Shown here piece by piece: positions 10,312-27,825 of a stretch of 39,813 nucleotides of DNA. The stretch covers positions 1-39,813 of the forward strand of contig CAJXLC010000019.1 of assembly GCA_913055645.1 (NCBI GenBank), read 5' to 3'. The notes under the pieces are model-generated. The model had not been told where the DNA came from, did not search any database, and saw only the letters and a list, made by a program, of their open reading frames with translations. The position numbers and the translations under genes are program-made. Numbering within the stretch: the stretch's first letter is position 1; the number at the start of each line of letters is the position of its first letter. Source of the DNA: an uncultured Pseudomonadota bacterium (lineage in GTDB: Bacteria > Pseudomonadota > Zetaproteobacteria > Mariprofundales > Mariprofundaceae).

Positions 10312-11037
10312 CTACTTTTTATTAATCTTTTTAGGATCTATAAATAGCATTTTCGTTGGGTCTTTAAAGCCAACTGCTCCACCCACAAAGAAATAACCAC
10401 AGGCAAAGATAAATGCTGCCAAGAGCATTGCAAAGTAAACAATAATCACAAATATGCCTTGATCCACATCCAAAACAATCGTAAAACCATCATTGGTTTT
10501 CTTCACTTCATGAATGGTCAGTGATCTTGCTTGAACTCTTAACTCAGAACCAGTCAATACAAAAATATCTTTTGTAAATAAAAATCTATTCATTTGTTTG
10601 GTAATCATAGGTACCAGAGACTCAGCATTTTTATTCCATAACTTAAATCCCGCCTCATTCGAGCTTTGATCTGCAAACGTTAATATGACATCTTTAGGAA
10701 TTTTCAAATAAAAGGAGTTATCCTTTGGTTGAAACGTAACCTTGCTTGTAAATGCCATCTTACCCCATTGCTTATCTAAACCAGAAGCCACCATAATGCT
10801 CGATTTAAAAGCAACATCTCCTGAATCTGTGATGCTTACAGAAGGGTCAGCAATCTCATACTTAATATTCAGATCTGTTGATTGTCCATCAATAAGAAAC
10901 ACAGGCTCCATAATTCCTTGGATACTCGTTTTTTCCACATTGACAGACAGCTGATTAACCTTAAAAATCAACAGTCCTATAACTGCGACAAGAAATAATA
11001 AAGTCGCTAACCGAAACAATAACTGTTTACTTAACAT
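10312..11037 (-). CDS. Unknown protein with N- and C-terminal membrane segments
   Basis: I do not recognise this 241-residue protein with confidence. A basic start (MLSKQLLFR) leads into a hydrophobic segment at about residues 8-26, then a soluble beta-rich region of about 165 residues, then a second hydrophobic segment at about 196-222 and a basic tail ending KKINKK. This predicts a large periplasmic domain between two membrane spans. The middle (KMAFTSKVTFQPKDNSFYLKI, then LTGSELRVQARSLTIHEVK) is loosely reminiscent of the DUF1439/YceB lipoprotein fold, but this one lacks a lipobox. AGGAG precedes the ATG by about 6 bp. It has its own terminator and is probably monocistronic. Confidence 0.75.
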   Translation of the reverse strand: MLSKQLLFRLATLLFLVAVIGLLIFKVNQLSVNVEKTSIQGIMEPVFLIDGQSTDLNIKYEIADPSVSITDSGDVAFKSSIMVASGLDKQWGKMAFTSKVTFQPKDNSFYLKIPKDVILTFADQSSNEAGFKLWNKNAESLVPMITKQMNRFLFTKDIFVLTGSELRVQARSLTIHEVKKTNDGFTIVLDVDQGIFVIIVYFAMLLAAFIFACGYFFVGGAVGFKDPTKMLFIDPKKINKK

Positions 11038-11099: not shown

Positions 11100-11141
11100 A
11101 TAAAAGCCACTGCAAAATGAACATATTGCAGTGGCTTTTAT
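11100..11141. terminator. Strong hairpin terminator after the cytochrome operon
   Basis: A perfect 16-bp inverted repeat (AAAAGCCACTGCAA with TTGCAGTGGCTTTT at its core) encloses a 10-base loop. It lies 20 bp past the stop of the triheme cytochrome, and its arms end in T runs on both strands. It isolates the oxidase-cytochrome operon from the gene at 10312-11037. Confidence 0.82.
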
Positions 11142-11160: not shown

Positions 11161-12198
11161 TCATTGCTGATTATTTGAACCCTCAAATCCACACTTACAC
11201 AACTTGCGAATATGTTTCACCAAGCCCTTAATTTCTGCATCACTTAATGTTCCTCCCCAAGGAGGCATCAATGCGGACTTACTAATAGACGCTCCACCTT
11301 CTTTGATTGCCTTAAACAACTCCGCATTGGTTCGTGTTTTTAAATATTTTGAATCAGAGTGGTTGCGCGGAGGCACTTCCATATCACGCGAGTTGATACC
11401 TGAGCCTTTACCTGAAATACCATGACATTGCATACAGTAAACACGATAATTTGTGGCAGCTGATTGCTCCACTGCATTTTTCATCATGCTCCTACTCTTA
11501 TCAGAGCCCAACGAGATAATGTAGTTCACCGTTTTTTGCATATCTTCTTCAGATAACTCACGTGTCGGCATCCATGTTTTATGATTCCATGCTTGGGGGT
11601 CACGAATATAACTCAGCATATATTCAGGCTTCAACCGAGCTGCCGCCGTATAAAGTTCAGGAGCTGAAAGACCACCATAATTTGGCTCAATACTATGGCA
11701 AGCCAAGCAACCATTCACTTTATCAAACATCATATCACCCAAAGCCGTCGGCACAGTAATATCAGGGTTATAATGCTCTGCTTCAATCAATTGATCTTTA
11801 CTACGCAATTCACTAAGTGCCTGTGCTACATTTTTAGCATCTAACGCACTCAAACGCACATGCGGCTTTAGTGAATCCTGACGGAGTGTATTCCACTTTA
11901 CACCCGTTTGGGTGTGATCAAGGTAAAATGCTCCCGATGGGCGAATCCTTGTCGGTTTTTGCAACCAAGTCGCAATCCAATTTTGATTATATTTATCTCC
12001 TGCATAGTACAAATCAGGGCCTTTACGCCACAAACCAACTGTTTTGGCATTTACATTGCCTGAAATATTATGACAGGCTGTACACCCCTGTTTTTCCATA
12101 AATTTGAAGCCTTGAGCCGCACCAGCAGAAGCATTAACACTCCACAGCAACCCTACGACTGCAACAGTTCCAGATAATATGCGTAGCATATATTTCAT
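11161..12198 (-). CDS. Triheme cytochrome c, periplasmic
   Basis: Predicted exported electron carrier of 345 residues. A signal peptide occupies about residues 1-25. Three haem-binding motifs are visible: CTACH (39-43), CLACH (164-168) and CMQCH (255-259). Likely axial methionines are M210 (TWMPTRE) and M311 (LMPPWGG). The third unit, YCMQCHGISGKGSG through GLVKHIRKL, is a typical class I cytochrome c domain; the first two resemble a diheme unit. The C-terminus carries an extra CKC pair (334 and 336) of unknown role. Its start overlaps the oxidase stop by 4 bp, so the pair is translationally coupled. It most likely passes electrons to or from that oxidase. Confidence 0.88.
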   Translation of the reverse strand: MKYMLRILSGTVAVVGLLWSVNASAGAAQGFKFMEKQGCTACHNISGNVNAKTVGLWRKGPDLYYAGDKYNQNWIATWLQKPTRIRPSGAFYLDHTQTGVKWNTLRQDSLKPHVRLSALDAKNVAQALSELRSKDQLIEAEHYNPDITVPTALGDMMFDKVNGCLACHSIEPNYGGLSAPELYTAAARLKPEYMLSYIRDPQAWNHKTWMPTRELSEEDMQKTVNYIISLGSDKSRSMMKNAVEQSAATNYRVYCMQCHGISGKGSGINSRDMEVPPRNHSDSKYLKTRTNAELFKAIKEGGASISKSALMPPWGGTLSDAEIKGLVKHIRKLCKCGFEGSNNQQ

Positions 12199-13250: not shown

Positions 13251-13306
13251 TAAATAATACCTCCCTTACAACATAAAATTATTGAAATTACTTCAACTAT
13301 GAAAAC

Positions 13307-13337
13307 TTATAAGACGCATTAAAAATATATCTTATAA
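13307..13337. promoter_or_regulatory. Probable NsrR-type operator
   Basis: Positions 13311-13333 match the 23-bp NsrR motif as I recall it (AAGATGCATTT, A, AAATACATCTT) at 20 of 23 positions: left half AAGACGCATTA, right half AATATATCTT. The outer 8 bp on each side form a perfect inverted repeat TTATAAGA/TCTTATAA (13307-13314 and 13330-13337). The site covers the -10 hexamer and start region of the predicted promoter, the position expected for a repressor. No nsrR gene is in the window. Confidence 0.6.
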
Positions 13338-13346
13338 AATTGTCAA
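13318..13346 (-). promoter_or_regulatory. Predicted sigma-70 promoter of the oxidase-cytochrome operon
   Basis: On the minus strand a perfect TTGACA (13341-13346) is separated by exactly 17 bp from TTTAAT (13318-13323). The start point would fall near 13311, giving a leader of about 60 nt before the ATG at 13250. The rest of 13251-13533 is AT-rich and holds a weak stem (TTGCCC/GGGCAA, about 13371-13406) with no T run. Confidence 0.65.
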
Positions 13347-27018: not shown

Positions 27019-27825
27019 TTAACTTATATGCTCGCTGCGGTGTTTTATCATGAATACAGTCACCAAGAAAACAACAAATACCAATACCTGCATGGCACTG
27101 GGGCTATCATCATAACCCATCAAAACATGCAAAAATTCACCCAAAACACTTTCCATAGAAAGCAGTGCGGAGCTATCCCATAGTCTATCTACCAGTGCGG
27201 GCAACATATCCACCATAATTAAGTTCGCAGCAGCTTGCGATGCCATACCCGCTGCCAAGAGCATCAACAGCCAACCCACCACCAGAAACATCTGTTTTAC
27301 AGGGATACGCACCAAGCCACGGTATAAAATAAATCCAACAATTACGCCAAGAAATAAACCAACAGCCCCACCCCACACGGTAGCCCAACCATCATCTTGC
27401 ACTGACTGTGCTGCGCCAAAGAGAAAAAATACGGCTTCAGAACCTTCACGCATCACAGCTGCCAAGGTAACAAAAAACAAAGCTGTACCTGGTAAATCGC
27501 CATCCACTACGGACTGCCCAACTTGGCGCATACGAAGTGACATCTCACGCCCATGTTTTGCCATCAAAATCACTGTCCAGGAAATCAGAATCGCTGCCAA
27601 ACTCAATAGCACAGCATTAAAAACAAATTCACCATCGCCATCCATGGATGATTCAAGTTCGGTCATAAATATTGCAATAGCAGCCGCCCCCAACAAACCC
27701 AACAGTGTTCCAAAAGCTATCCACCTACGGCTCTCTAATGAGCCTGTTGTAGCAGCCATGAGAACGCCTAATACGATGGACATTTCCAACACTTCACGAA
27801 ATACAATAATCATTGCAGACATCAT
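27019..27825 (-). CDS. FTR1-family iron permease (EfeU-like)
   Basis: 268-residue inner-membrane iron permease with about seven spans. Both iron-binding REXXE motifs are intact: REVLE (residues 10-14) and REGSE (126-130). In EfeUOB-type systems the partners EfeO and EfeB assist; neither is nearby. Its ATG overlaps the fur-like stop by 4 bp, so both genes are in one transcript behind a Fur box. AGGAG lies about 11 bp upstream. Confidence 0.92.
   Translation of the reverse strand: MMSAMIIVFREVLEMSIVLGVLMAATTGSLESRRWIAFGTLLGLLGAAAIAIFMTELESSMDGDGEFVFNAVLLSLAAILISWTVILMAKHGREMSLRMRQVGQSVVDGDLPGTALFFVTLAAVMREGSEAVFFLFGAAQSVQDDGWATVWGGAVGLFLGVIVGFILYRGLVRIPVKQMFLVVGWLLMLLAAGMASQAAANLIMVDMLPALVDRLWDSSALLSMESVLGEFLHVLMGYDDSPSAMQVLVFVVFLVTVFMIKHRSEHIS

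Follow-up and report, generated by a model that had tools for sequence, protein, structure and literature searches.

A predicted NsrR operator at the promoter of a nirK-free ncgA-ncgBC operon in an uncultured member of the Mariprofundaceae

The ncgA-ncgBC locus

The window (the whole stretch of 39,813 nucleotides analysed here) encodes on its minus strand homologues of ncgA, ncgB and ncgC in this order (55%, 41% and 41% identity, respectively), ncgB and ncgC being fused in a single cytochrome gene (Table 1). The ncgBC gene overlaps ncgA by 4 nucleotides, and the hairpin that follows it suggests that the two genes form an operon. The closest solved chains to NcgA are 2zwn and 3g5w, and, among named organisms, the oxidase has its nearest relatives in the Mariprofundaceae (Zetaproteobacteria). 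Immediately after the operon (positions 10312-11037, minus strand) lies a gene for a 241-residue protein that has no match to any Pfam family.

Table 1. Features of the ncgA-ncgBC locus (positions in the window)
Feature	Position	Strand	Basis
-35 box TTGACA	13345-13340	-	identical in 8/8 close relatives; fixed spacing to the operator
Promoter spacer, 17 nt	13339-13323	-	read from the sequence
Predicted NsrR operator AAGATATATTTTTAATGCGTCTT	13311-13333	-	motif match, matrix score, conservation
-10 box TTTAAT, within the operator	13317-13322	-	sequence direct; function inferred
Likely ribosome-binding site AAGGGAGG	13260-13267	-	sequence direct
ncgA, two-domain multicopper oxidase, 351 aa	12195-13250	-	55% identity to N. 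eutropha NcgA over residues 30-348
ncgBC, c-type cytochrome, 345 aa, three CXXCH motifs, NcgB-NcgC fusion	11161-12198	-	sequence comparison
Hairpin AAAAGCCACTGCAA...TTGCAGTGGCTTTT 3' of ncgBC, likely terminator	11101-11138	-	read from the sequence; absent from the automated scan listing

Upstream of ncgA, the minus strand reads TTGACA ATTTTATAAGATATATT TTTAAT. A sequence-only reading of this DNA had described here a TTGACA-17-TTTAAT promoter whose -10 box is overlapped by a 23-bp site matching the NsrR motif at 20 positions. The promoter is as it described it. The count is also correct: AAGATATATTTTTAATGCGTCTT agrees with the consensus AAGATGCATTTNNAATGCATCTT at 18 of the 21 specified positions (3 mismatches), and the 2 free positions bring the total to 20 of 23. 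The palindrome type against which the site was judged is AAGATGCATTTNNAATGCATCTT, or gATGyAT-N5-ATrCATc, and AAGATATATTTTTAATGCGTCTT is of this type. It overlies 11 nucleotides of the spacer and the entire -10 box of the predicted promoter, a placement by which binding of NsrR could block the promoter. A promoter scan did not list the ncgA promoter, since it required an A as the second base of the second hexamer, which here is TTTAAT.

The operon consists of ncgA-ncgBC without nirK and is not an ncgABC-nirK cluster. No nirK was found in the operon or in the genome, the sole match of a NirK search being NcgA itself (71.7 bits versus 296.3). By comparison, Nitrosomonas-type NirK proteins in relatives score about 125-170 bits and classical NirK proteins about 450-490 bits. 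Likewise, nirS and hcp were looked for in the genome and not found. A search for nnrS gave no match either, but it did not detect its control anywhere and so carries no weight as evidence of absence. Among the sampled genus members that carry ncgA, several of whose genomes are incomplete, NirK was detected in only one (G002). The link that had been drawn to the Nitrosomonas ncgABC genes holds, NcgA and an NcgB-NcgC fusion being encoded here; the absence of nirK and the fusion itself go beyond what the sequence-only reading stated. A COX1 search of the genome yielded a single long match, besides two short COX1-like proteins of about 172-181 residues (L152:1297-1842, plus strand, contig C6; L151:1423-1941, minus strand, contig C4). 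Both resemble haem-copper oxidase subunit I in its C-terminal part only, and one of them is encoded about 2.5 kb downstream of nsrR (see below).

Statistical support and conservation of the operator

The ncgA site is the only match to AAGATGCATTTNNAATGCATCTT with three or fewer mismatches in the 1.88-Mb genome and in the window; no such match occurred in any of 100 dinucleotide-shuffled windows. An independent, symmetric matrix was derived from 31 non-zetaproteobacterial sites located 5' of ncgA in Alpha-, Beta- and Gammaproteobacteria. With this matrix, whose training sites were chosen for resembling the NsrR consensus and which therefore tests similarity to NsrR sites rather than a motif found de novo, AAGATATATTTTTAATGCGTCTT scores 22.4 bits and the second-best site of the window 12.8 bits. 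Not one of 2.0e7 positions generated by a first-order Markov model reached the score of the ncgA site. AAGATATATTTTTAATGCGTCTT is very probably an operator of NsrR.

The operator is preserved throughout the genus. Across eight close relatives, it is 78-91% identical to that of the window, whereas the flanks are only 24-74% identical. The spacing between CTTGACA and the operator is constant in these relatives, although the start codon lies at varying distances from them. On a broader scale, NsrR-like sites that are better than shuffled sequences occur 5' of ncgA in more than half of 80 ncgA loci, including those of Nitrosomonas eutropha, Thiobacillus, Nitrobacter and Duganella, and such sites are found in many Gamma-, Beta- and Alphaproteobacteria. 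At some ncgA loci, several of Mariprofundus among them, a strong site directly upstream of the gene was not found. In two relatives (L009 and L011), the NsrR-like palindrome 5' of ncgA is followed just downstream by another, which lies near the ribosome-binding site. This tandem arrangement suggests tighter control in both.

NsrR and the extent of its regulon

Three Rrf2 proteins are encoded in the genome, one of which is of the NsrR type (L001:1489-1956, contig C6). It scores above the Pfam Rrf2 cut-off and is 50% identical to the NsrR that adjoins ncgABC-nirK in N. eutropha. Among the NCBIfam equivalog models, NsrR fits it best, at 128 bits against a curated cut-off of 182 that it does not reach, and RirA comes fairly close behind at 107 bits. 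The N. eutropha NsrR, at 135 bits, also falls below this cut-off, indicating that 182 bits does not separate the NsrR proteins of the ncgABC group. In an alignment with E. coli NsrR, the two proteins have in common three cysteines and, in the recognition helix, the residues SRNH. The genes of the other two Rrf2 proteins adjoin an iscS-like and a sufB-like gene, and the best-scoring models for these proteins are IscR and SUF regulator. The presence of an nsrR gene, which the sequence-only reading had proposed as a check of its claim, is thus borne out by a protein that has an NsrR recognition helix and the three cysteines and that adjoins globins of the NO-detoxification type.

The nsrR gene is divergent from genes for two truncated haemoglobins (trHb) and a 2Fe-2S/FAD/NAD reductase. 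The intergenic region contains AAGATATATTTGATATGCGC, the only exact match, besides the ncgA site, to the genus motif AAGATRTATTTNNNATGCRY, a pattern that was composed with both sites in view. It also contains a second palindrome, which overlaps a TTGACA and recurs in relatives. Measured against the general consensus, the two nsrR/trHb sites are weak (13/21) and no better than shuffles.

In Mariprofundus, at loci L012, L015, L016, L017 and L022, nsrR is divergent from a trHb-trHb-reductase-ncgA-ncgBC array (with one trHb match in L016). The lack of a strong site of its own at the Mariprofundus ncgA is as expected if the gene is read from the trHb promoter. The sites at these trHb promoters are weak too, except in L012. 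At five loci (L019, L020, L021, L023 and L052), nsrR comes after ncgA-ncgBC, in convergent orientation.

The genome was scanned for further regulon members by pattern searches only. The genus motif has its next match at C13:33309, within a gene of the asparagine-synthase-like kind, which is not taken as a regulon member. Matches with two mismatches upstream of other genes (L159 and L164) were rejected as they lack a good second half. From these scans, the regulon looks small, comprising ncgA-ncgBC and the nsrR/trHb/reductase genes.

Proposed mechanism and alternative readings

Our main reading, to which we assign a probability of roughly 0.88 from the sequence evidence, is that an NsrR operator represses ncgA-ncgBC, that this repression is relieved by NO and that the regulon is shared with the nsrR/trHb/reductase locus. 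Without NO, the Fe-S form of NsrR would cover the spacer and the -10 box of the ncgA promoter, excluding RNA polymerase. NO would attack the cluster, NsrR would leave the DNA, and NcgA, the two-domain multicopper oxidase, and NcgBC, the fused tri-haem cytochrome c, would be produced. Together with nsrR and the divergent trHb-trHb-ferredoxin-type reductase set, which is of the NO-dioxygenase type, ncgA-ncgBC would then make up one small regulon. The sequences themselves show the site, the promoter, their conservation, an NsrR-type regulator, the NsrR-like sites at nsrR/trHb, the identities of the genes and the lack of nirK and nirS. From there we infer that NsrR binds the site and occludes the -10 box, that NO releases it and that NcgA-NcgBC would help to handle NO or nitrite in the periplasm.

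That the palindrome is a mere product of an AT-rich promoter has a negligible chance of being true. The region is indeed AT-rich, and the -10 box contributes part of the motif. However, the shuffled windows and the Markov positions yielded nothing comparable, and preservation of the operator in relatives whose flanks have diverged already contradicts chance. A different member of the Rrf2 family, IscR-like or SUF-type, could bind the site and would then sense not NO but the status of Fe-S clusters or iron. The genome does contain three proteins of this family, which shares a fold and cluster chemistry, and RirA is the runner-up model for the NsrR candidate itself. The company that the other two proteins keep (iscS and sufB) and their best scores nevertheless assign them elsewhere. 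Their recognition helices, LSYLEQ and APTVSK, differ from the SRNHLVK of NsrR. Moreover, the site resembles those of NsrR, and a related one is present in the promoter of nsrR, which makes binding by another Rrf2 protein very improbable.

It may also be asked whether NsrR, responding in a general way to redox state or iron, controls an enzyme that oxidises Fe(II) or copper. Iron oxidation is a known trait of the Mariprofundaceae, NcgA belongs to the multicopper oxidases, the window encodes an FTR1-family iron permease (27019-27825, minus strand), and superoxide-generating agents or iron chelators can damage NsrR clusters (PMC3820574). Against this stand the position of the Mariprofundus ncgA-ncgBC genes, which follow the truncated globins and reductase beside nsrR, and the nitrite tolerance that nirK and ncgABC confer on N. 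europaea (PMC5080386). We regard Fe(II) or copper oxidation as unlikely, and an NO-responsive operator of NsrR as the preferred reading.

On the preferred reading, induction of ncgA-ncgBC by NO is well predicted. Induction by nitrite is the less secure prediction and would probably require its prior conversion to NO, since it is NO that the cluster of NsrR detects (PMC3820574) and the genome is without nirK or nirS. A further, more tentative idea, which we consider somewhat less probable than its opposite, is that ncgA-ncgBC constitutes a stand-alone NO-response module without a nitrite reductase, the partnership with NirK being secondary. For instance, ncgA-ncgBC would scavenge or oxidise NO in the periplasm and the truncated globins would do so in the cytoplasm. 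NO could arise where Fe(II) reduces nitrite chemically, and iron oxidisers may meet NO of this origin. On such general grounds, exposure to it would give the regulon a reason to exist.

Comparison with known systems

NsrR is known to control ncgABC-nirK (PMC1274295; PMC2844404). The system described here resembles that of Nitrosomonas europaea and N. eutropha in the type of regulator, in the gene order ncgA, ncgB, ncgC and in the presence of the same motif 5' of ncgA (the N. eutropha site is AAGATACATTTTAAATATATCTT). It differs from it in lacking nirK, in having ncgB and ncgC as one gene, and in the location of nsrR, which lies on a different contig from ncgA, adjoining the truncated globins. 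In this last respect, it is like Legionella pneumophila, where NsrR controls a truncated globin and a ferredoxin reductase, the glbN-ferredoxin reductase operon (PMC1274295, PMC3820574). Unlike in Legionella, there are two globins here and the regulon would also include ncgA-ncgBC.

Within the same class, an ncgABC-nirK cluster with homologues of NcgA, NcgB and NcgC has been described in Loihi Zetaproteobacteria and proposed to serve in nitrite detoxification, in a text that does not mention NsrR (PMC3603346). That contig carries nirK, in contrast to the genome considered here. A text search of the accessible literature found no paper on NsrR control in Zetaproteobacteria. Since the regulon appears small and most sampled genus members that bear ncgA are without nirK, the function of NcgABC should be testable apart from that of NirK. 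In this uncultured marine relative of iron oxidisers, a copper-oxidase/cytochrome operon should be switched on under NO stress, despite the absence of the nitrite reductase that is its usual companion. The ncgA-ncgBC system is, as a nirK-free form, a new addition to the known NsrR-ncgABC system.
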